Shown: positions 7,632 through 18,336 of the stretch, piece after piece
Layout of the letters: each line of letters starts with the position of its first letter
How positions within the stretch are numbered: position 1 is the stretch's first letter
DNA from: Tessaracoccus caeni
Lineage (GTDB): Bacteria; Actinomycetota; Actinomycetes; Propionibacteriales; Propionibacteriaceae
Length of the DNA stretch: 64,000 nt
Reading direction: 5' to 3'
Assembly: GCF_029211185.1 (NCBI RefSeq)
Contig: NZ_JARGDO010000012.1
Coordinates: 62,001 to 126,000, forward strand
Program-made: the position numbers and the translations under genes
The notes under the pieces: model-generated
Databases searched by the model: none
Seen by the model: only the letters and a program-made list of their open reading frames with translations
Told to the model about the DNA's origin: nothing

Positions 7632-9812
7632 ATGACCACCGCACCGAGCGCCGCGACGACGCCACACAACGTGCTGATGCGCGCTGGCGGCACCGCCGTC
7701 TTCCTCCGTGTCGAAGCCGACTCCCTGCCGGAGGTGCTCTACTGGGGCCGCGACCTCGGCGCCCTCTCCGACGCCGGCCTCGAGGCCTGGGGCTCCGCGC
7801 GCGTCGGATCGGTGTCCGGCTGCGCCGATGTGTCCCCGAGGATCTCCCTGGTGCCCAGCCAGGCGGAGGGCTGGCTGGGGACGCCCGGGCTCGCCGGATC
7901 GCGTTCGGGACTGGATCAGTTCTCGGCCTTCCGGCCCGTGTCCGTCGAGGTGCGGGCCTGCGACGGCACCGACGGCGCCCCATCTCAGGTGATGATCGCC
8001 GCGCACGACGACGAGGCCGATCTCGACCTCACTCTCGACGTCGAACTCACGCCGTCGGGCCTGCTGCGCACCCGCGCCACGCTCACCAACCGGGGTACGG
8101 ACGGGTACGGCGTCGATTCGCTGCTGCTGGCGCTGCCGACCCCCGCGTCGGAGACCCAGGTGATCGATCAGTCCGGGCACCACCTGCGCGAGAGCGCCAC
8201 CGCCACCCACGAGTTCACCATCGGCACCCACGAACGCACCATCCGCATCGCGCGCGGCCACACCGCCTCCACCATCCACGGCACCTGCGAGCCCGGCGCC
8301 GGCTGGGGCAAGGGGCAGGTGCACTACGTGCACGTCGCGTGGTCGGGCAACACTCGTTCGGTGGCCGAGCGTACGGTGCTCGGCCAGCAGGTGCTGCTCG
8401 GCGGCGAGCTGCTGATGCCCGGAGAGGTGGTGCTGAACCGGGACGAGTCGTATTCGTCACCGTGGCTGGTCGCCACCTGGGGCGAGGGCCTCGACCAGGC
8501 CGCCGCCCGCATCCACGACTTCCTCCGGGCACGCCCCGGGCACCCGCGCTCGACGCGACCCGTCACCTTCAACGCGTGGGAGGCGGTCTACTTCGACCAT
8601 TCCCTGCCCCGCCTGCTCGATCTGGTCGAGGTGGCCGCCGAGGCCGGAGCCGAGCGCTTCGTGCTCGACGACGGCTGGTTCGGCTCCCGCCGCGACGACA
8701 ACTCCGGCCTGGGCGACTGGGTGGTCTCCCCCGACGCCTGGCCGAACGGCCTGAACCCGCTGGCCGACGCGGTGCACGCCAAGGGCATGGAGTTCGGGCT
8801 CTGGTTCGAGCCCGAGGCCATCAACCCCGATTCCGACGCAGCCCGCGCGCACCCCGAATGGATCCTGTCCCCGCGCACCCACCGCCCGCAGGAGGCCCGC
8901 GGCCAGCAGGTGATCGACCTCACCAACCCCGAGGCCTTCGACCACGTGCTGGGCCAGATGCGCACCGTCCTGGCCGACACCAAGGTCGACTTCATCAAGT
9001 GGGACTACAACCGCGACCTCTACGAGTCGATCTCGCCGCGCACCGGTCGCCCCGCCTACCACGCTCAGATCCTGGCCACCTACCGGTTGATGGACATCCT
9101 GCTCGCCGAGCACCCCGGGCTGGAGATCGAGTCCTGCGCCGGCGGCGGCGGCCGCATCGACCTGGGCATCATGGAGCGCGCCGTGCGGGTGTGGGGCTCC
9201 GACTGCATCGACCCGCTCGAGCGCCAGCAGATCGAGGCCGGCACGTCACTGCTCCTGCCGCCGGAACTGGTGGGCTCGCACGTCGCCTCCACCACGTCGC
9301 ACACCACCAGCCGCACCCTGAACCTCAGCGTGCGCGCCTCCACCGCGATGTTCAACCACATGGGCGTCGAATGGAACCTGCTGGACGCCTCCGACCAGGA
9401 GCGCCGCGACCTCGCCGGCTGGATCGCCCTGCACAAGCGCTTCCGTCCGCTGTTCCACACCGGACGGGTGGTGCACGTCGACTATCCCGATGACGGCTGG
9501 AGCATCCACGGCGTCGTCTCGCAGGATCGCGACGAGGCCGTCTTCAGCCTGATGCGGATCGCCACCTCGGCCGCCCGTCCAGGCCCCGCGATCACGCTGC
9601 CCGGGCTGAATCCCGACGCCGACTACCGGCTCGCCGATCTGCGTCCCGAAGGCGTCGCCTCACCCGTGCGCTTCGACGCGCATTCGCCGGAGTCCTGGGC
9701 CTGGTGGCGGGAGGGTCTCACCCTCCCCGGCAGCGTGCTCAGCACCGCCGGCCTCCGCTTCCCCGACCTGGATCCCGCGCAGGTGATCCTGGTACACCTC
9801 ACACGGGCCTGA
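7632..9812 (+). CDS. Alpha-galactosidase, GH36 family
   Basis: 726-residue retaining alpha-galactosidase, the usual length for bacterial GH36. It has an N-terminal beta-sandwich, a central (beta/alpha)8 barrel (about 330-640) and a C-terminal beta domain. Catalytic nucleophile D458 lies in FIKWDYNRD and acid/base D524 in GSDCIDPLERQQIE; the WEAVYFD and DDGWFGSR barrel strands are also present. AAGGAG precedes ATG 7632. No signal peptide, so it acts in the cytoplasm on imported alpha-galactosides such as melibiose or raffinose. Its stop abuts the convergent LacI gene, and the sugar ABC genes follow, so it probably processes their cargo. Confidence 0.95.
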   Translation: MTTAPSAATTPHNVLMRAGGTAVFLRVEADSLPEVLYWGRDLGALSDAGLEAWGSARVGSVSGCADVSPRISLVPSQAEGWLGTPGLAGSRSGLDQFSAFRPVSVEVRACDGTDGAPSQVMIAAHDDEADLDLTLDVELTPSGLLRTRATLTNRGTDGYGVDSLLLALPTPASETQVIDQSGHHLRESATATHEFTIGTHERTIRIARGHTASTIHGTCEPGAGWGKGQVHYVHVAWSGNTRSVAERTVLGQQVLLGGELLMPGEVVLNRDESYSSPWLVATWGEGLDQAAARIHDFLRARPGHPRSTRPVTFNAWEAVYFDHSLPRLLDLVEVAAEAGAERFVLDDGWFGSRRDDNSGLGDWVVSPDAWPNGLNPLADAVHAKGMEFGLWFEPEAINPDSDAARAHPEWILSPRTHRPQEARGQQVIDLTNPEAFDHVLGQMRTVLADTKVDFIKWDYNRDLYESISPRTGRPAYHAQILATYRLMDILLAEHPGLEIESCAGGGGRIDLGIMERAVRVWGSDCIDPLERQQIEAGTSLLLPPELVGSHVASTTSHTTSRTLNLSVRASTAMFNHMGVEWNLLDASDQERRDLAGWIALHKRFRPLFHTGRVVHVDYPDDGWSIHGVVSQDRDEAVFSLMRIATSAARPGPAITLPGLNPDADYRLADLRPEGVASPVRFDAHSPESWAWWREGLTLPGSVLSTAGLRFPDLDPAQVILVHLTRA

Positions 9813-10874
9813 TCAGGAGGGCGCGGGCCCCGTCGATCCACGAACGACGAGACGACAGGGCAACAGGGCCGGGCCGGGCGTCAGCCGCACGGCTCCCGCA
9901 CTCTCGGGATTGATGGCGGCCAGCACGGCCAGCATCGCGCACCGCCCCATCTCCGCGAGGGGAAGCGCCATGGTGCTCAGCAACGGCACCATGTCGTCGG
10001 CCAGCCGGCGCTCGTCGTCGTAGCCCATGATCGACAGGTCGCCAGGCACCTCCAGGCCCAGCCGCGCGGCCGCCAGCAGCGCTCCGCTGGCGGCGCGATC
10101 GTTCGGCATCAGGATCGCCGTGGGCCGGTCCGCCACGGGAACGTCCAGCATCCGCAGCGCCGCGTGGTAGCCGGGGATGAGCTTGTAGTCGGCGATCGTC
10201 ACCCAGTCCTCCCGCACGGGCAGCGTCGCCGCAGCCATGGCCAGCCGGAACCCCTCCTGGCGCTGCCACGTGGCCGGAGCCGTGTCCTCGCCCCCGATGA
10301 AGGCGATACGACGATGGCCCAACTCGATCAGGTGCTCCGCCGCCGTCCGACCGCCGGCCACCTCGTCGGGCAGGAAGACGGGCAGCCGCAGCGCGCCCTC
10401 CGACGAGTCCGGCCTCGGATAGCAGTTCGCCAACGCCCCGGGCACCGAGAGAAAGGAGTCGAGGACGGTGGTCTCGCGCATGCCAACCCTCAACAGGATC
10501 AGGCCATCGACGTTGCGCCCGAGCAGGCCCGCGATCGCCGCCGCACCGTCGTCGGCGCGTCGCTCGCTGTCGGCCGAGACGATCACGAACCCGTGCTCGC
10601 CGGCCGCGCGGTCGGCGCCCGCGATGATCTCACCGTCGAAAGGGCCGGTCACCGCGACGTCGGAGATCACGCCGATGATGCCGGAGCGCTGGTTGCGCAG
10701 GCTGCGGGCCACCTGATTGGGGGTGTAGCCCAGCTGCGCGGCCGCCTCGCGGATCCGCTGCTGGGTCTCCTTGGCCAAGAACCCGTCCGCGCGCTGGTTG
10801 AACACCATCGACACGGAACTGCGCGCCACCCCAGCCAGATCGGCCACGTCCTGCGCCGTCGCTCGTCGTGCCAC
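9813..10874 (-). CDS. LacI-family transcriptional regulator
   Basis: 353 residues from GTG 10874, with GAGGAGGA upstream. The N-terminal helix-turn-helix (TAQDVADLAGVARSSVSMVFN, residues 6-26, then the hinge helix PNQVARSLRNQ) is followed by a periplasmic-binding-protein-like effector domain (about 60-340). Family members sense a sugar and repress nearby uptake or hydrolase genes. Located downstream of the ABC genes on the same strand, beyond a terminator hairpin, and convergent with GH36. The effector is probably an alpha-galactoside or a breakdown product (inference). Confidence 0.93.
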   Translation of the reverse strand: MARRATAQDVADLAGVARSSVSMVFNQRADGFLAKETQQRIREAAAQLGYTPNQVARSLRNQRSGIIGVISDVAVTGPFDGEIIAGADRAAGEHGFVIVSADSERRADDGAAAIAGLLGRNVDGLILLRVGMRETTVLDSFLSVPGALANCYPRPDSSEGALRLPVFLPDEVAGGRTAAEHLIELGHRRIAFIGGEDTAPATWQRQEGFRLAMAAATLPVREDWVTIADYKLIPGYHAALRMLDVPVADRPTAILMPNDRAASGALLAAARLGLEVPGDLSIMGYDDERRLADDMVPLLSTMALPLAEMGRCAMLAVLAAINPESAGAVRLTPGPALLPCRLVVRGSTGPAPS

Positions 10875-10956: not shown

Positions 10957-11862
10957 TCAGCCCTTGACCGCGCCGGAGGTCATGCCTCGGACGAAGTAGC
11001 GCTGCAGGGCGAAGAACACGGCGAGCGGCAGGACCATCGACAGGAACGCGCCTGCCGTGACCAGGTGCCAGTTCTCGCCACGGCTGCCGAGCAGGCCGGC
11101 CAAGGTGACGGTCATCACGCTGTTCTGGCCCTGGCCCAGGAAGATCAAGGCCACCAGCATGTCGTTCCACACCCAGAGGAACTGGAAGATCGCGAACGAC
11201 GCCAGAGCCGGGGTGGACATGGGGATGATCAGCTTCCAGAAGGTCTGCCAGTGCGTGGCACCGTCGATCTTCGCCGACTCCACCACCGACTTGGGCAGCG
11301 TCGCCATGTAGTTGCGCAGGATGTAGACCGCCAGCGGCATGCCGAAGCCCGCGTGAGCCAACCACACCGTCGCGAACTGACCCTGAATGCCCAGCTGCTG
11401 GAAGATGATCGACAGCGGCACGAAGGCCACCTGGTTCGGGATCACCAGCAGGCCGACGATCAGGATGAACAGGAAGTCGCGTCCCTTGAACTCCATGAAC
11501 GTGAACACGTACGCGGCGAACGCGGCGATCAGGATCGGGATGATCGTGGCCGGAACCGCGACCGTCAGCGAGTTGATGAACGACAGGCCCATCGGGGTCG
11601 AGCCCGAGGTGAGCACCTCGGAGTAGTTCTCGATGGTGATCTGCGCCGGATTGGCGAAGACATTCCACCAGCCGTTGGCGTTGGCCTCGGTGCGGGGACG
11701 AAGCGACGTCACCAGCAGACCGAAGGTCGGCACCAGCCAGATCAGGCACATGATCACGACGATGGATTCGATGATCCACAGACCCTTGTTCGACCCGACG
11801 GAATGCGACTTGTCCTCGCCGCGAGCCACCTTCGGCTTCTTCTTGACTGCTGCGGTGCTCAT
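10957..11862 (-). CDS. Carbohydrate ABC transporter permease (MalG type)
   Basis: 301-residue inner-membrane permease of the CUT1 sugar uptake class with six predicted membrane segments. The EAA loop is visible as ESAKIDGATHWQTFWKLIIP, which contacts the ATPase. The start ATG overlaps the stop of the MalF-type gene (ATGA). No ATPase gene is in the operon; as in many actinobacteria, a shared MsiK-like ATPase elsewhere would be needed. Ligand likely an alpha-galactoside or related oligosaccharide from context. Confidence 0.93.
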   Translation of the reverse strand: MSTAAVKKKPKVARGEDKSHSVGSNKGLWIIESIVVIMCLIWLVPTFGLLVTSLRPRTEANANGWWNVFANPAQITIENYSEVLTSGSTPMGLSFINSLTVAVPATIIPILIAAFAAYVFTFMEFKGRDFLFILIVGLLVIPNQVAFVPLSIIFQQLGIQGQFATVWLAHAGFGMPLAVYILRNYMATLPKSVVESAKIDGATHWQTFWKLIIPMSTPALASFAIFQFLWVWNDMLVALIFLGQGQNSVMTVTLAGLLGSRGENWHLVTAGAFLSMVLPLAVFFALQRYFVRGMTSGAVKG

Positions 11863-12851
11863 GCGTTCTCCTCCTGAAGCCGGAACTGGCGCACCTGGTA
11901 GACCAACACCGGAATGATGGCCACGACCAGGATCACGACGATGGCCGATGCCTTACCGGGGTCGTACTGCCGGAACAGCGCGTTGTAGAAGGCGTTGCCG
12001 AGGACGTTGGTGTTGTAGTTGCCGTTGGTCATGGCGTAGACGATGTCGAAGACCTTCATCACGCCGATGAGAACGGTGATGAACACCGTGATCACCGTCG
12101 GCCATGCCTGCGGAAGGATGATCCTCCAGAAGATCTGGCCTTCCTTGGCGCCGTCGATGCGGCCGGCCTCGATGGTGTCCTCCGGCACGCCCTTGAGCGC
12201 GGCGGAGAGCAGCACCATGGCGTAGCCCACCTGGGTCCAGATGTAGACGACCATCAGCATGAAGGTGTTGAACCGCAGCGTGTCGACCTGAAGCCAGGTC
12301 TGCGGCTCGCCACCCAGCGCCACCAGGATGGCGTTGAACAGACCGGTCTGCGGGGAGCCCGGGGGCTTCCAGGCGTAGACAAGGTTCCAGATGGTCGAGG
12401 CGCCGACCATCGAGATCGCCATGGGCAGGAAGATGATCGACTTCGCGACCTTCTCCGCCGTGGGCTTCAGCTTGTCGACGAGCACCGCCACCAACAGGCC
12501 GAAGCCGACGATGCCCACCGGGGCCACCAGGATCCACAGCACGTTGTTGATCAGCGTGTTGATGAAGGTGGGATCGGTGAACAGCTTGACGTAGTTGTTG
12601 AAGCCGACGAATTTGCCGAGCGTGCCGCTGTTGCCCGCCCGGAAGCTGCCCACGATGGTTTCCACCGCGGGATACAGCAGGAAGACGGTGATCACGCCGA
12701 AGGCGGGAATCAGGAGGGCATAAGGCTTCAGCCGCTCCTCCCACTTCTTCGGCAGCAGTTCACACGCCTTGTTCAGGAGCCAGAAGAGGACGATCGCCCC
12801 CAACACTCCGACCACGACCGCGCCGAGCGCGAGACCTAGTTTCTCAATCAT
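11859..12851 (-). CDS. Carbohydrate ABC transporter permease (MalF type)
   Basis: 330-residue CUT1-class permease with an extra N-terminal membrane helix, several further membrane segments and the EAA loop EAGRIDGAKEGQIFWRIILPQ. It forms the heterodimeric channel with the MalG-type protein encoded 4 nt overlapping downstream. Preceded by the binding-protein gene with a 66-nt gap, so all three are one operon. Confidence 0.93.
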   Translation of the reverse strand: MIEKLGLALGAVVVGVLGAIVLFWLLNKACELLPKKWEERLKPYALLIPAFGVITVFLLYPAVETIVGSFRAGNSGTLGKFVGFNNYVKLFTDPTFINTLINNVLWILVAPVGIVGFGLLVAVLVDKLKPTAEKVAKSIIFLPMAISMVGASTIWNLVYAWKPPGSPQTGLFNAILVALGGEPQTWLQVDTLRFNTFMLMVVYIWTQVGYAMVLLSAALKGVPEDTIEAGRIDGAKEGQIFWRIILPQAWPTVITVFITVLIGVMKVFDIVYAMTNGNYNTNVLGNAFYNALFRQYDPGKASAIVVILVVAIIPVLVYQVRQFRLQEENA

Positions 12852-12917: not shown

Positions 12918-14246
12918 TTACTGCTCGTCCGTCGGCCACGCCGAGTCGATGAACTTCAGCGTGGTGTCGAGATCGGTACGGCCGGAGGTGTAGTCGACCA
13001 TGCCGGTCCAGAACGAACCCGCACCCACGGCGCCGGGCATCTGGTCGGAACCGTCGAAGCGGAACAGCGTCGCGTCGGACACCGAAGCGGCAACGGCGCG
13101 CAGGGTCTCATTGGGGTACTTCGAGGTGTCGAAGGACTTCAGCGGGGACAGCCATGCACCGGTGTCGGACTGCTTCTCACCGAAGGTGGGATCGGTGGTC
13201 ATGAAGGCCATGACCTTCTTGACGTTGTCGTCGTTCGCGGTGAACGCGGCAGCCATGTCGCCGCCGCCGAGGAAGGCGCTCTCGCCCTTCACCGACGGGG
13301 TCAGGAACATGCCGACGATGTCGTCGAGCTGATCGAAGATCTCATCCGGGAAGAAGCCGCGCTGGGTGATGAAGTTGCCCTGCTTGCCGAGGTAGCACTT
13401 GGGATCCTCGTCGAACATCGGGTTCAGCGACTGCGCCATGGCGTTGGCGGAGGCGTTCTCGACGCCGCCGTAGACGTTGCCCGGGGTCATGATGATCTGA
13501 TCGAAGATGGCGACGGCCTCGCGGATCTCGGGGCTGTCGAACTTGATCTCACCCGCGACCCACTTGTCGTAGACCTCGGCGCCGCCGGTCTGCAGGACGT
13601 AGTCCTCGATCCAGTCGGTGGCGGGCCAGCCGGTGGCCGGGCCCGACTCCATGCCGAAGCAGAGCGGGGTGTTGCCGTCGGCCTTGATCTTGTCGATCAG
13701 AGCCAGCAGCTCCTCGTGGTTGTTGGGCACGGTGTACCCGGCGGCCGTGAAGGCCGGCTTGTTGTACCAGTAGAACGACTTGCCGTTCATCGCCATCGGC
13801 GCGCCGTAGATGGTGCCGTCGACGGTGGCGGCATCGAGGAAGCCGGGAACGATGTCGGCCTGCAGCTTGGGCAGGTCGACCTGGCTCTCGAGCGACTGCA
13901 GCTTGCCGTCCTTGGCCATCTTCTGCAGGATGCCCGGCTGCGGGAAGATCGCGATGTCAGGCGCGTCGCCCGACTGCACCTTGGCGACGATCTGGATCTC
14001 GAACTCGTTGGACTGGATGAAGTCGAACGTCACGCCGTTGGCGTCACCCCAGGTCTTCATGTCCTCCTGGAACGCCTCCGACTGGTCGCCGGAGAAGGCG
14101 TACATGACCTGGATGGTCTCCTTGGCAGTGGCCTCGCCGGAGTTCCCGGACCCGGGATCGGGCTCGGTGCCACCTCCACCCAGACATGCAGTGAGGGCCA
14201 GGCTGGCCACGGCCAGACCAGCGACGAGGGATTGCTTGATGCGCAT
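12918..14246 (-). CDS. Extracellular solute-binding lipoprotein (sugar)
   Basis: 442-residue family-1 binding protein. ATG 14246 is chosen because AAAGGAG lies 9 nt upstream; it gives a lipoprotein signal peptide with lipobox LTAC and acylated C21, followed by a glycine-rich tether. Binding-protein folds are seen throughout (for example YWYNKPAFTAAGYTVP and AFLGGGDMAAAF). It captures the sugar outside the membrane and delivers it to the MalF/MalG-type permeases encoded next. First gene of the operon; upstream lie an inverted repeat and repeated ACACGTGT boxes. Confidence 0.93.
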   Translation of the reverse strand: MRIKQSLVAGLAVASLALTACLGGGGTEPDPGSGNSGEATAKETIQVMYAFSGDQSEAFQEDMKTWGDANGVTFDFIQSNEFEIQIVAKVQSGDAPDIAIFPQPGILQKMAKDGKLQSLESQVDLPKLQADIVPGFLDAATVDGTIYGAPMAMNGKSFYWYNKPAFTAAGYTVPNNHEELLALIDKIKADGNTPLCFGMESGPATGWPATDWIEDYVLQTGGAEVYDKWVAGEIKFDSPEIREAVAIFDQIIMTPGNVYGGVENASANAMAQSLNPMFDEDPKCYLGKQGNFITQRGFFPDEIFDQLDDIVGMFLTPSVKGESAFLGGGDMAAAFTANDDNVKKVMAFMTTDPTFGEKQSDTGAWLSPLKSFDTSKYPNETLRAVAASVSDATLFRFDGSDQMPGAVGAGSFWTGMVDYTSGRTDLDTTLKFIDSAWPTDEQ

Positions 14247-14282
14247 TTGCCTTGCTCCTTTGCAGCGGTTCTCCGGCGCGGT

Positions 14283-14303
14283 CGCGCGGAGTATCACCGC
14301 GCG
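14283..14303. promoter_or_regulatory. Inverted repeat upstream of the binding-protein gene
   Basis: CGCGCGG and CCGCGCG (7-bp arms, 7-nt spacer) lie 37-57 nt upstream of the sugar-binding lipoprotein start. A LacI-family gene belongs to the same locus, so this is a candidate operator or mRNA leader hairpin. It does not match the classical LacI-family consensus. Confidence 0.35.
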
Positions 14304-14382: not shown

Positions 14383-14433
14383 CTGACACGTGTAGCGGAG
14401 AACCCCACGAGGACTGACCTGACACGTGTAGCG
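14383..14433 (+). repeat. Direct repeat CTGACACGTGTAGCG, two copies 36 bp apart
   Basis: Identical 15-mers at 14383-14397 and 14419-14433, each with a palindromic ACACGTGT core. They lie 137-187 bp upstream of the sugar ABC operon start. Two copies at a spacing near 3.4 helical turns could be regulator sites. The ACACGTGT core recurs in a perfect palindrome upstream of the ABC exporter at 28048. Confidence 0.45.
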
Positions 14434-14445
14434 CCCCTCGCGCTC

Positions 14446-14697
14446 CTCGAGGAGAGCGACTGGCAGCCAGAAGACAGTCCCAGCCCCTTCTTCACGCTCT
14501 TCGAGGCGCGAGGCCGCCCGCGGCCGAGCCTCGAGGAGAGCAACGGGCAGCCAGACGACAGTCCCAGTCCCTTCTTCACGCTCTTCGAGGTGCGAGGCCG
14601 CCCGCGGCCGAGCCTCGAGGAGAGCGACAGGCAGCCGGAAGACAGTCCCCGCCCCGGATCACGCTCTGTTCGAGGCTCCGGCTTCGGTGCTCGTTCC
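14446..14697. repeat. 84-bp tandem repeat, three units
   Basis: Units begin with CTCGAGGAGAG at 14446, 14530 and 14614, an exact 84-bp period. The first two differ at few positions; the third decays after about 40 bp. Each unit carries TTCGAGG and CCTCGAGG elements resembling the repeats at 57924. An open frame runs through the block, but its composition is repeat-driven and it has no ribosome site, so I do not call it a gene. The block fills most of the 14247-14717 gap. Confidence 0.8.
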
Positions 14698-14717: not shown

Positions 14718-17306
14718 TCAAAGAGCGTACTCACCGTCCGGGCCGGTGGCTCGGATCTGGAAGGTGCTCGTCGCGAGGTCGGCTGTCAGCACGGCGGTGT
14801 GGCCGTCCTTGGTCCACGTCATCTCCAGCTGATGCGCGGGCGTCTCCCCGATGGTGCACGTCGCGTCGAAGCCGAAGGCCGGGCAGTGGTTGCGGAAGCG
14901 GAGCAGCTCCAGCTGCTGCGCGACGATCGGCCGCTGCAGCCCCTCCGCCACCGTCTCCGGCGACAGGTTGGTGCGGTTGATCTCCTTGTGACCGCCGGCG
15001 CCAGCACGCTCGACGGCGGCGTGGTCGTTGCGGCCGGCGAACAGATCCAGGTACCAGATCTGCGGCTTGCCCGGCGTGAACAGCTGAATGGCTCGGGCCA
15101 GCAGCATCTTGGCCTCGTCCTCGCCCAGCGCGCTGAAGTACGTCGCGTTGACCTGGTAGTAGACGTTTTTCGCGCCGTGCAGATCCTTGACGTAGCCGCC
15201 CCTGCTGACGATGACGTCGATCAGCTCCTGGATGCGATCGTCGTCCAGCAGGCCTTGCAGGTCGAGCACCGGGATGCCGTCGTGGCAGCCGAGCATAGTG
15301 ACGGTGTTGATCTTCCGCTCGATCACCTCGCCGATCCAGCGCCGGAGCACCGTGGTGTCCTGACGCTCGAAGGCGTCCAGCACCAGGCCGGGCAGGAAGA
15401 AGTCATAGGTGAGGAAGCCCTTGTCGGCGATGGTCTGGTGGATGCCCTCGGCGTAGCGCGAGTGGATCTCGGGCAGCAGCTGGACGCCGCGCGTGTCGGC
15501 GAGCTGCTTGACCTCCGCCAGCAGATCCCAGGTGCCGGGGTCGTTGAGGAAGTTGCGCTCCCCCGGCGCCTTGGGGGCGTAGGCGAAGGCGTCGAGGCGG
15601 ACGATCCGCGCGCCGTAGCCGGCGAGCCGGTCGAGGGTCTCGGCGTAGAACTCCCACACCAGGGGCGACTGGATGTTGAGGTCCATCTGGCCCAGGTAGC
15701 GGCGCTTCGATTCGAGCAGCTCCACCACCGCGTCGCGCGCGGCCTCGTAGCCGGCGAAGTCGACATCGGCCGGGCGGCCGCCGTCGGCGAGCGTGGCGGC
15801 GATCCGGCCCACCAGCTCCTCGGCGCTGCCGTACTGCAGGCCCGTGGCCTCCATCAGATCCTGCGGATCAGGGGTGGTGTAGCGCACCTCTTGGTAGAAG
15901 GTGTTCCAGTAGGGCTTCTCGGTGCCGTCGGGCATCCGCACCATCAGGATCGGCAGGCCGGCCTTGCGGAAGAACATGTCCTTGATCAGCTCGGGATCGG
16001 GCTGGATCCAGCCGCCCTCGGTGAGTTCGCCGTGCCCGGCCCAGAAGGCGTTCCAGTCGATGAAGAAGTCGGCGTAGCGGGAGCGCTCGCCGTTTCGCAG
16101 GATGTCCTGGAACTGGGGCGAGAGCACCGAGGCGTGGTTGAGGATGAAGTCGAACTTCAGGTCCACGCCCGCGTCGACCAGCGCCGGCAGATCCTCGGGC
16201 GAGGTGAGCCGCTCGCTCAGGTCGTAGGAGATCACGGAGAAGCCGCGGTCGAGGTCGGTGTTGAAGACGCTCGGCAGCAGGTAGGCCGACTCGAACGCGC
16301 CGGCCACTGCGGGATCGGTGAGCAGGTCGACGGTGCCCGAGAGGCGCTCGCCGATGCTGTCGGGGTAGACGTTGAGCATGGGGCCGCTGCCCGGCAGGTG
16401 GCGTCCCATCGTGCGCAGGTAGGCGTCGTAGTCGAGCAGCTCACCGTTCTTCGCGACGATGATCGCCGCGCGGTGCGCCTGCGAGTGCAGCAGCTCCTGC
16501 TCGAGTTCGAGCACCATCGTGGTGAACGGGCTGTCGGTGCCGCCGTCGCGGTTGCGGGCGCGACGGTGCGCCAGCGTCTCGGCGGGGGTGCTGTTGAGCA
16601 GGATCGGGATGTCGACGCCGCGAAGGTTGTCGTTGTTTCCGTGGGTCCACTCGACGACCAGCACGGGGACGTCGCTCACGTCGACGGCGTCGTACCAGAG
16701 CTGGTCGGGGGTACGACCCATGCGCTTGAGGGTGAGCGCGTCGGCACCGTCGTGGAAGGCCGCGAGGATGGCGTTGACTTCGTCGAAGTCGATCTCGTTG
16801 GACGTTCCCAGGTAACCGGTGAGGCCGCGTCGGCCCGCCTTCTGATAGGTGGCCAGCCAGGGGTGTTCGGCGCGCTGGGCAGGATCGGCGTCCTGGTCTG
16901 CGGCCTGGAGCTGGGCGAGCTGCTCGCGCACCGCGTCGTCGTAGAGACCCTCGGCCACCAGGCCCTGAACGCCGGAGACGCGGAAGGTGCGCAGGCGCTC
17001 GGCGTCGTTGGCGCTGGGCACGCGACGCGGGTAGTTGTCGCCCGACATCACGTAGGCGCCGATGCCCGCCGCCTTGAGCGCGTGCGCCAGCAGCGACCCG
17101 ATCTCGGACTTGCCGACGCCCGACCCGCCGTGCACGGAGATCACCGCGCGGCCGCCGTCGGCCAGCAGGGGCTCCAGCCGGCGCTGCAGCTCGGGCCAGA
17201 TGATGTCGGCCTTGTCCAGGTGCGACTCCGAGATCTGGATCTTGTCACCGGGCATGTCCCCCGCGACGAGCGCGTCGAGGTCCATCGATCGGAAGGTGCT
17301 CTCCAT
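14718..17306 (-). CDS. P-loop kinase fused to GH13 sucrose-phosphorylase-like enzyme
   Basis: 862 residues. Residues 1 to about 305 form a P-loop kinase resembling uridine/phosphoribulokinase types: Walker A GGSGVGKS (60-67), then SGDNYPRR. From M310 (MLNVYPDSIGERL) the protein is a GH13 subfamily-18-like phosphorylase, with nucleophile D572 (RLDAFAY), acid/base E613 (LLPEIHSRY) and transition-state stabiliser D676 (GCHDGIPVLD). Such enzymes split sucrose or glucosyl-glycerate/glycerol with phosphate, giving glucose 1-phosphate. The fused kinase may phosphorylate the released acceptor; that is inference. Start 28 nt after the ornithine carbamoyltransferase stop suggests cotranscription. No signal peptide. 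Confidence 0.9.
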   Translation of the reverse strand: MESTFRSMDLDALVAGDMPGDKIQISESHLDKADIIWPELQRRLEPLLADGGRAVISVHGGSGVGKSEIGSLLAHALKAAGIGAYVMSGDNYPRRVPSANDAERLRTFRVSGVQGLVAEGLYDDAVREQLAQLQAADQDADPAQRAEHPWLATYQKAGRRGLTGYLGTSNEIDFDEVNAILAAFHDGADALTLKRMGRTPDQLWYDAVDVSDVPVLVVEWTHGNNDNLRGVDIPILLNSTPAETLAHRRARNRDGGTDSPFTTMVLELEQELLHSQAHRAAIIVAKNGELLDYDAYLRTMGRHLPGSGPMLNVYPDSIGERLSGTVDLLTDPAVAGAFESAYLLPSVFNTDLDRGFSVISYDLSERLTSPEDLPALVDAGVDLKFDFILNHASVLSPQFQDILRNGERSRYADFFIDWNAFWAGHGELTEGGWIQPDPELIKDMFFRKAGLPILMVRMPDGTEKPYWNTFYQEVRYTTPDPQDLMEATGLQYGSAEELVGRIAATLADGGRPADVDFAGYEAARDAVVELLESKRRYLGQMDLNIQSPLVWEFYAETLDRLAGYGARIVRLDAFAYAPKAPGERNFLNDPGTWDLLAEVKQLADTRGVQLLPEIHSRYAEGIHQTIADKGFLTYDFFLPGLVLDAFERQDTTVLRRWIGEVIERKINTVTMLGCHDGIPVLDLQGLLDDDRIQELIDVIVSRGGYVKDLHGAKNVYYQVNATYFSALGEDEAKMLLARAIQLFTPGKPQIWYLDLFAGRNDHAAVERAGAGGHKEINRTNLSPETVAEGLQRPIVAQQLELLRFRNHCPAFGFDATCTIGETPAHQLEMTWTKDGHTAVLTADLATSTFQIRATGPDGEYAL

Positions 17307-17334
17307 GTGTTGTCTCTCCAGCTTCTTCGGGGGG

Positions 17335-18336
17335 TCAGGGGGTTTCAGCCAAGGTCGCCACGAGGACGGCCTTGATGGTGTGCATGCGGTTCTCGGCCTG
17401 GTCGAAGACGATGCTGGCCGGCGACTCGAACACCTCGTCGGTCACCTCGACGCCGTTCAGACCGAACTCGTCGAACAACGCCTTGCCGACGCTGGTCTCC
17501 AGGTCGTGGAAGGCCGGCAGGCAGTGCATGAACTTCACGTCGGGGTTGCCGGTGGCGGCGAGCAGTTCGGCGTTGACCTGATAGTCGCGCAGCAGCGCGA
17601 TCCGCTCGGCCCACACCTCCTTGGGCTCGCCCAGCGACACCCACACGTCGGTGTAGACGAAGTCGACGCCGGCGACGCCCGTGGCCACGTCGTCGGTGAT
17701 GGTGATCCGGGCCCCGGTCTGCTCGGCCAGGCGACGAGCCTCGGCGACGATCTCGGGCGCGTTCTGCTGAGCCACCGGAGCCACCATGCGCACGTCCATG
17801 CCCATCAGCGCGCCCGAGATGAGCAGCGAGTTGCCGACGTTGTTGCGGGCGTCGCCCAGGAAGGCGAAGGCGATCTGCTCGATCGGCTTGCCGCTGTGCT
17901 CCAGCATGGTGAGCTGGTCGGCGAGCATCTGGGTGGGATGCCAGTCGTCGGTGAGGCCGTTGTAGACGGGCACCCCGGCGTGCGCGGCTAGCGTGTCGAC
18001 GGCGGCCTGGGCAGAGCCGCGGAACTCGATGCCGTGGTACCAGCGACCCAGCACCCGCGCGGTGTCGGCGGCCGACTCCTTGTGCCCGATCTGCGAGCCC
18101 GACGGGTCGAGATAGGTGGTGTTGCCGCCCTGCTCGAGCATCGCGACCTCGAAGGCGCAGCGGGTGCGCGTCGACGTCTTCTCGAACAGCAGGGCGACAT
18201 TCTTGCCCACCAGGCGCTGACGCTCACGACCCTCGGCGCGCTCCCGCTTCAACTCCGCCGACAGCTCCAGCAGCGAGCGCCACTCGTCGGGGGTGAAGTC
18301 GAGTTCTTTGAGGAAGCTACGGCCGTGCAGACTCAT
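17335..18336 (-). CDS. arcB: Ornithine carbamoyltransferase (catabolic ArcB type)
   Basis: 333 residues. It transfers a carbamoyl group between carbamoyl phosphate/ornithine and citrulline. The carbamoyl-phosphate loop STRTR is at 55-59, the ornithine loop HCLP at 271-274, and the segments [24 protein letters not shown] and [10 protein letters not shown] match the longer catabolic subgroup. No arcA or arcC is adjacent; instead the kinase-GH13 gene follows 28 nt downstream, an unusual pairing. An anabolic (argF) role cannot be excluded from sequence alone. Confidence 0.93.

Follow-up and report, generated by a model that had tools for sequence, protein, structure and literature searches.

A sucrose-kinase-like domain fused to a putative sucrose 6F-phosphate phosphorylase in Tessaracoccus caeni and other Actinomycetota

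The gene described here lies in a 64,000-nucleotide stretch of DNA from Tessaracoccus caeni (NCBI RefSeq assembly GCF_029211185.1, contig NZ_JARGDO010000012.1, positions 62,001 to 126,000 of the forward strand), which is referred to as the window and numbered from its first letter. On the minus strand at 14718–17306, one unbroken open reading frame (ORF), with its ATG at 17306 and its stop codon ending at 14718, encodes an 862-residue chain, in which a P-loop kinase (residues 1–303) precedes a complete GH13_18 phosphorylase (residues 304–862). The junction is short, the last kinase helix (293–299) being followed about 10 residues later by the first barrel strand (E310–313). An original prediction for this locus, made by a model without database searches, had proposed such a joining of a kinase and a GH13_18 phosphorylase on a single chain, with the P-loop GGSGVGKS at residues 60–67 and with D572, E613 and D676 intact; the uninterrupted frame, the position of the P-loop, and the alignment of the three residues with D223, E264 and D327 of the sucrose 6F-phosphate phosphorylase (SPP) of Ilumatobacter coccineus (IcSPP) bear out these points. 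The features of the gene are as follows, AgaSK being the Ruminococcus gnavus protein that combines GH36 with a sucrose kinase (SK) domain.

14718..17306, minus strand: fused gene encoding a sucrose-kinase-like domain and then an SPP-type GH13_18 domain, 862 residues (ORF, fused orthologues)
16398..17306, minus strand: kinase domain, residues 1–303, with a predicted PRK/uridine kinase/pantothenate kinase fold (AlphaFold2 model, fold matches, homology to the AgaSK SK domain)
17106..17129, minus strand: Walker A motif (P-loop) GGSGVGKS, residues 60–67 (sequence; G60, S62, G63, G65 and K66 invariant in 33 aligned kinases)
16851..16985, minus strand: kinase insert of 45 residues, 108–152, lacking in both AgaSK-type kinase domains used for comparison (alignments)
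14721..16397, minus strand: GH13_18 phosphorylase domain of SPP type, residues 304–862 (57% identity to 6s9u over aligned columns; VIA Z 50.6, root-mean-square deviation (rmsd) 1.7 over 502 residues)
15726..15881, minus strand: phosphorylase insert, residues 476–527, absent from IcSPP and from the SPPs of two AgaSK loci (alignments)
15591..15593, minus strand: predicted catalytic nucleophile D572 (aligns with IcSPP D223)
15468..15470, minus strand: predicted acid/base E613 (aligns with IcSPP E264)
15279..15281, minus strand: predicted transition-state stabiliser D676 (aligns with IcSPP D327)
15153..15170, minus strand: loop A KNVYYQ, residues 713–718, the KXXYYQ signature of strict SPPs (alignment; motif from PMC7178133)

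The best solved relative of the phosphorylase half is IcSPP (Protein Data Bank entry 6S9U, EC 2.4.1.329), which resembles it in the GH13_18 fold, the KXXYYQ loop A and the R/K/Y/Q/K acceptor set (57% identity, Z 50.6), whereas the crystallised IcSPP chain has neither the 52-residue insert nor the kinase domain. In the passages cited here, strict SPPs are described as carrying KXXYYQ in loop A and sucrose phosphorylases N(L/V)D(I/L/V)YQ (PMC6720575, PMC7178133), while glucosylglycerate phosphorylases have Glu instead of the loop A Gln, and glucosylglycerol phosphorylases a VGA motif (PMC6720575); docking placed fructose 6-phosphate against Arg152, Glu264, Lys364, Gln378 and Lys434 in IcSPP numbering (PMC6720575, PMC7178133), and the two characterised KXXYYQ enzymes, IcSPP and RgSPP, are described as acting strictly on sucrose 6F-phosphate (PMC6720575, PMC7178133). 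In the window protein, R447, K707, Y717, Q718 and K774 align with IcSPP R152, K364, Y377, Q378 and K434, and all ten of the acceptor-site and catalytic residues checked match IcSPP. The loop A of sucrose phosphorylase (EC 2.4.1.7) is replaced by KNVYYQ, the Gln exchanged for Glu in glucosylglycerate phosphorylases is present as Q718, and no VGA motif occurs in the loop A region, GAKNVYYQVNAT. Across the other 64 SPP rows included in the tree described below, nine of the ten checked residues are identical (one row is gapped at E613), with R447, K707, Y716, Y717, Q718 and K774 invariant in 64 of 64 and K713 kept in 61 (Q, T and R in loci L038, L073 and L110, respectively); the two rows of the sucrose-phosphorylase outgroup deviate at five of the ten. 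The TIGR03852 model (sucrose_gtfA) scored 313.4 bits, below its cut-off of 334.4. Because of the KXXYYQ loop and the SPP acceptor-site residues, the phosphorylase half is of SPP type and should need an already phosphorylated sucrose as its substrate, a reading of the alignment that replaces the sucrose-phosphorylase-type enzyme of the original prediction.

The kinase half was identified from gene context and the AgaSK literature and then by alignment. A domain search of this half, as had been proposed, returned no Pfam or other curated family above its cut-off, and the phosphorylase half likewise no Pfam family (AAA_16, 19.8 bits against 32.6; Alpha-amylase, 10.4 against 22), and PHROGs gave a single weak match, of unknown function, for the protein; homology to the AgaSK SK domain, on the other hand, emerged by alignment. 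With phmmer, the kinase alone found only weak matches among solved chains, mostly P-loop proteins, at E values of 0.09 or worse. A PfkB-type fructokinase was also considered and dropped, there being no such Pfam match and the fold being of the P-loop kind. The AlphaFold2 model of the kinase (304 residues, mean pLDDT 92.8, pTM 0.89) matched pantothenate kinases at Z 16.5–17.8, uridine kinases at Z 12.6–16.4 and glycerate-3-kinases at Z 13.5–14.3, with individual matches to 5xlw (Z 17.8, rmsd 3.2 over 227 residues), 1rz3, a possible uridine kinase (Z 16.4, rmsd 2.3 over 179 residues), and 3c8u, a putative fructose kinase (Z 15.7, rmsd 3.1 over 192 residues), by which the predicted fold is that of the PRK/uridine kinase superfamily. 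Members of this superfamily phosphorylate primary hydroxyls. The expectation that the kinase half is complete was borne out by the alignment, since the Walker A motif and the conserved columns are intact, with K66, D90, E219, R248, R251 and R253 among the columns invariant across the 33 aligned kinases.

AgaSK-type kinases were sought in 250 genomes of the family of a Roseburia metagenome-assembled genome (MAG), the query being the short SPP-linked kinase of locus L090, and two matches, L107 and L109, lie within frames of 942 and 932 residues. The GH36 part of L107 is very nearly the same as the crystallised R. gnavus AgaSK domain 2YFN (1102.9 bits over 485 residues), and its SPP frame overlaps the 3′ end of the AgaSK frame. 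Over 261 residues, the kinase of the window protein shares 37.5% identity with the SK domain of L107 (E = 2e-61), which stands here for that of R. gnavus AgaSK; identity is 36% to the kinase domain of L109 (E = 5e-56) and 50% to the free-standing SPP-adjacent kinase of L106 (E = 1e-102). Isolated RgSK is reported to phosphorylate sucrose with ATP (PMC7688924). A second, shorter and divergent type of kinase, about 217 residues long and starting with MKGD, adjoins the SPP in loci L075, L089 and L090 (about 7.2–7.9 kb) and L153–L155, which come from Marinifilaceae and from three genomes of actinobacteria whose SPPs lack the insert; that of L090 is 24.5% identical to the window kinase, and the short type is either a replacement or a deep branch of the same family.

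The kinase and the SPP are paired far beyond the window. In a scan of named genomes with the SPP alignment, the best 80 of at least 516 confirmed candidates were kept, being the nearest relatives and not a random draw, so that rarer arrangements may be missed. The kinase is fused to the SPP in 20 of these loci and lies directly upstream on the same strand in 57, while two have none and one (L094) is at a contig edge with the kinase region out of view; the kinase is thus fused to or beside the SPP in 77 of 80. One of the 20 fused loci, L026, and L002 of the 95-genome search described below are a single contig, and the 57 adjacent pairs include L074, whose kinase is cut by the contig end and which was excluded from the insert count. 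In the unfused pairs the kinase comes first, with computed gaps of −253 to 213 bases. By their labels the 20 fusions belong to Actinomycetota, and the 57 pairs to Bacillota (Clostridia/Bacillota), with five Bacteroidota and two Alphaproteobacteria MAGs; in three further cases, found in the phylum draw, an insert-less SPP gene is immediately preceded by a short gene for a kinase of this superfamily. By comparison, 16 control loci (7.4–13.5 kb) of less similar GH13_18 enzymes, taken from the genus and phylum draws and all from Actinomycetota, carry the sucrose-phosphorylase loop in 16 of 16 cases and the kinase in none. The metabolic coupling of kinase and phosphorylase that the original prediction had suggested is very probable, with the pairing in 77 of the 80 nearest loci against 0 of 16 controls. 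For the 57 unfused pairs, the pairwise distances among the kinases correlate with those among the SPPs (r = 0.667; 0 of 1000 permutations as high), which shows co-inheritance and not contact, because shared descent of linked genes gives such a correlation too. For R. gnavus and its relatives, the presence of a kinase domain in the same cluster as an SPP was noted before (Tauzin 2019, PMC7178133); what is new here is the breadth of the pairing, and the fusion.

The fusion is not a chance read-through, because the same two-domain chain recurs in 3 of 95 other genomes searched (67–70% identity over 847–851 query residues) and in 20 of the 80 kept loci. Its occurrence is patchy in the genus of the window (1 of 38 other genomes), and a phylum-wide draw of 396 genomes, including the window's own, yielded the full fusion in three others. 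The protein is a real, conserved two-domain enzyme, made of known parts in a new arrangement; no description of a kinase–SPP fusion was found in the open-licence papers searched, where nothing contradicts the earlier statement that no characterised enzyme has this layout. Opposite the fused gene runs an antisense open frame of 858 residues (14799–17375, plus strand), which is probably a shadow frame due to the high GC content of the coding DNA.

A tree of 68 phosphorylase rows, built by a quick search, leaves out 22 loci (mostly redundant Butyrivibrio and relatives, the partial L036 and the edge-cut L094) together with L026, and flags IcSPP, L076, L110 and L073 as long branches. The branch separating the 66 SPP rows, including IcSPP and the SPP of L107, from the two sucrose-phosphorylase rows has an SH-aLRT value of 100, with the caution that the long IcSPP and outgroup branches meet. 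All 22 fused rows group together in a single clade (SH-aLRT 100), with one change of state, so that the fusion most likely arose once. Its members are labelled Propionibacteriaceae, Nitriliruptoraceae, Egibacteraceae, unplaced actinobacterial and, in one case, Corynebacterium; the fusion of the last, L039 (Corynebacterium sp.), is nearly identical to those of Propioniciclava L038 and of G019, a genome of the window's genus, and its label may be wrong. Among 86 kinase–SPP pairs, the inserts 108–152 and 476–527 are both present in 74, both absent in seven, and present in the SPP only in five and in the kinase only in none. This co-occurrence raises the idea of a domain interface, which is confounded by the 12 pairs without the kinase insert being few and largely clustered by descent. 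In the fused frame of L029 (7179–9677), the SPP insert is kept and the kinase insert is missing.

We consider it highly probable that the protein is a bifunctional sucrose kinase and SPP, in which the kinase acts first, on C6 of the fructosyl unit. The sequences show the identities of the domains, the residue sets and the pairing, while the two activities, the 6F position of the phosphate and a possible transfer from one site to the other are inferred. In the predicted mechanism, the N-terminal domain of PRK/uridine-kinase fold would transfer phosphate from ATP to the primary C6 hydroxyl of the fructosyl unit, giving sucrose 6F-phosphate and trapping sucrose at the first step, and the SPP half would then convert sucrose 6F-phosphate by phosphorolysis into glucose 1-phosphate and fructose 6-phosphate. 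The net reaction would be sucrose + ATP + phosphate to glucose 1-phosphate + fructose 6-phosphate + ADP, with no release of free fructose. Its stoichiometry is the same as that of sucrose phosphorylase plus fructokinase, at one ATP. The two sugar phosphates that had been foreseen as products would be retained in this scheme, whereas the order of events would be reversed: the kinase had been assigned to the acceptor released by phosphorolysis, but it should act on sucrose before cleavage because it is homologous to the AgaSK sucrose-kinase domain, and cleavage followed by phosphorylation is a poor fit because the acceptor site is of the fructose-6-phosphate type. If the GH13 half were to split sucrose, glucosylglycerate or glucosylglycerol and the kinase to phosphorylate the freed fructose, glycerate or glycerol, the same two sugar phosphates would result from sucrose, and the fold matches do include D-glycerate-3-kinases and the putative fructose kinase 3c8u. 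This is nevertheless very improbable, as loop A is KNVYYQ and not N(L/V)D(I/L/V)YQ, with Q in place of the E of glucosylglycerate phosphorylases; both characterised KXXYYQ enzymes are described as strict for sucrose 6F-phosphate (PMC7178133); and the kinase pairs with SPPs, occurring in 0 of the 16 loci with the sucrose-phosphorylase loop.

The proposed 6F regiochemistry conflicts with that described for AgaSK, whose product is reported to be sucrose 6-glucose-phosphate, with the phosphate on C6 of glucose (PMC7688924), an isomer that should not be used by SPP; RgSPP, from the same locus as AgaSK, is reported to be selective for the 6-fructose isomer (PMC7688924). A kinase that makes sucrose 6G-phosphate, with a fused SPP that separately uses sucrose 6F-phosphate from another source, would agree with the R. 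gnavus AgaSK report (PMC7688924) and with the separate routes drawn for the two sucrose-phosphate isomers in Tauzin 2019, and a 2020 review gives the source of sucrose 6F-phosphate, in the passage cited, as uptake by the phosphotransferase system (PTS) or unknown (PMC7178133). However, the product of the kinase in the 2020 study was identified by mass spectrometry, according to the passage concerned (PMC7688924), and the position of the phosphate does not follow from mass spectrometry by itself. In GH13_18 enzymes, the glucose pocket is described as conserved (PMC6720575), and a 6-phosphate there should not fit; furthermore, the fusion and the near-constant SPP neighbourhood are hard to explain unless the product of the kinase is the substrate of the SPP. 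We therefore regard a 6G-specific kinase as improbable. The 6F isomer is favoured as the kinase product by the fusion or adjacency of kinase and SPP in 77 of the 80 nearest loci; that a single chain should carry out two unrelated reactions is less likely.

Downstream of the fused gene and on the same strand lie genes for a sugar-binding protein, two permeases and a LacI-family regulator, followed on the other strand by a GH36 gene.

12918..14297, minus strand: ABC-transporter extracellular sugar-binding protein (Pfam PF01547; functional link inferred)
11859..12851, minus strand: ABC transporter permease (Pfam PF00528)
10957..11862, minus strand: ABC transporter permease (Pfam PF00528)
9813..10874, minus strand: LacI-family regulator (Pfam PF00356, PF13377)
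7632..9812, plus strand: GH36 alpha-galactosidase, the enzyme class fused to sucrose kinase in AgaSK (Pfam PF02065, PF16875, PF16874)

These neighbours would allow the uptake of raffinose-type sugars and the release of sucrose, which is suggestive for the genome of the window only. The cluster was tried as general support for raffinose use and given up, since the flanks covered in the 20 fused loci, up to 8 kb per side, show no GH36, binding-protein or permease matches. The interval that separates the fused gene from the binding-protein gene contains two exact copies of CTACACGTGTCAG, at 14383–14395 and 14419–14431, 36 bp apart, and a tandem repeat at 14445–14655 (84-bp unit, 2.5 copies, 91% matches). 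At up to one mismatch, CTACACGTGTCAG occurs in the 4.16-Mb genome in these two copies only, against three for a reversed control pattern; at up to two mismatches, two are found in the window against 1.00 expected, and 30 of 100 shuffles reach two. By count the pair is no more frequent than chance, and only its exactness and closeness are notable. The boxes are perhaps operators of the neighbouring LacI regulator, and given their place ahead of the binding-protein gene and after the fused gene, the transporter operon may be under a control of its own.

Together with the AgaSK report, several observations weigh against the proposed bifunctional enzyme. Both catalytic activities are putative in this protein, its kinase shares no more than about 37% identity with the characterised type, the 80 loci were kept as the nearest relatives among at least 516 candidates and are not a random sample, and the SPP stands without a kinase in L043, where only about 1.5 kb upstream is covered, and in L044. 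When flanks of up to 8 kb per side were compared, several of them ending at contig ends, 0 of 20 fused loci matched the GH36, binding protein or permeases of the window and one of 20 its LacI regulator; in the unfused loci, by contrast, permeases were matched in 25 of 57 and the GH36 in two of 57. No sucrose cluster was found among 20 flanking proteins scanned in six fused loci (17 with a family and three without, from heuristic gene calls), these flanks holding aminopeptidases, nitrate transport and reductase, MFS transporters, a histidine kinase, an IS110 transposase, a peptide synthetase and others, and the actinobacterial fusions seem to lie outside sugar operons. The ornithine carbamoyltransferase upstream of the fused gene was likewise matched in 0 of the 80 nearest loci. 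The genome of the window also has seven GH32 matches and is likely to hold other sucrose enzymes. Because GH32 occurs in 15 of the 23 fusion-bearing genomes, a lack of invertase-type enzymes does not go along with the fusion. A search for the sucrose-phosphate phosphatase PF05116, bearing on whether the hosts make sucrose, was positive in 22 of the 23 fusion genomes, but in 11 of 14 control genomes too.

With no window-type sugar-transport genes around the other fusions, the context gives no substrate, and the kinase identity to the AgaSK type is moderate; both leave some room for a non-sucrose fructoside or glucoside, such as a related disaccharide that is phosphorylated and then cleaved. IcSPP, however, is described as highly specific for sucrose 6F-phosphate (PMC6720575), and its acceptor-site residues are identical here, making such a substrate extremely improbable.

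The two-domain protein is worth comparing with known systems that tie a sugar kinase to a glycoside-active enzyme. The R. gnavus AgaSK (GH36 plus sucrose kinase) has a homologous SK domain, and its cluster is reported to encode an SPP (PMC6521584, PMC7688924). Whereas the kinase of AgaSK is C-terminal and fused to GH36, the preceding enzyme of the pathway, that of the window protein is N-terminal and fused to the following enzyme, and it carries the 45-residue insert missing from both AgaSK-type kinase domains compared. The window protein does not have the kinase–GH36 fusion of AgaSK, GH36 being a separate gene (7632–9812). The 57 free-standing pairs have the same domains in the same order, but in two genes instead of one, and a separate kinase gene is described for Clostridium sp. 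L2-50 (Tauzin 2019). Another likeness is offered by trehalose synthase–maltokinase, in which a GH13 enzyme is likewise tied to an ATP-dependent sugar kinase, and whose complex 5JY7 is among the fold matches of the phosphorylase half. Fused forms of this pair exist, but the GH13 subfamily and the kinase family are different, and the kinase acts on the product and not before the GH13 step.

The AgaSK locus is said, in the passage cited, to be restricted to a few gut species (PMC7688924), whereas the kinase–SPP pairing reaches far beyond these, with labels of Bacillota, Bacteroidota, Alphaproteobacteria and Actinomycetota. The one-chain fusion and the pairing in 77 of the 80 nearest loci across the labels of four groups make it most likely that the kinase feeds the phosphorylase, and the fused enzyme makes the conflict over AgaSK regiochemistry testable. 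A single enzyme converting sucrose into glucose 1-phosphate and fructose 6-phosphate might find a use in biocatalysis as well. More broadly, we see an even chance that these proteins represent a PTS-independent, cytosolic sucrose 6F-kinase tied to a phosphorylase, in which case the kinase family would make the 6F isomer throughout, correcting the 6-glucose report for AgaSK and supplying a source of sucrose 6F-phosphate, and the fused actinobacterial protein, perhaps together with those two-gene pairs that have both inserts, would pass the intermediate from site to site without its mixing with the pool of the cell.

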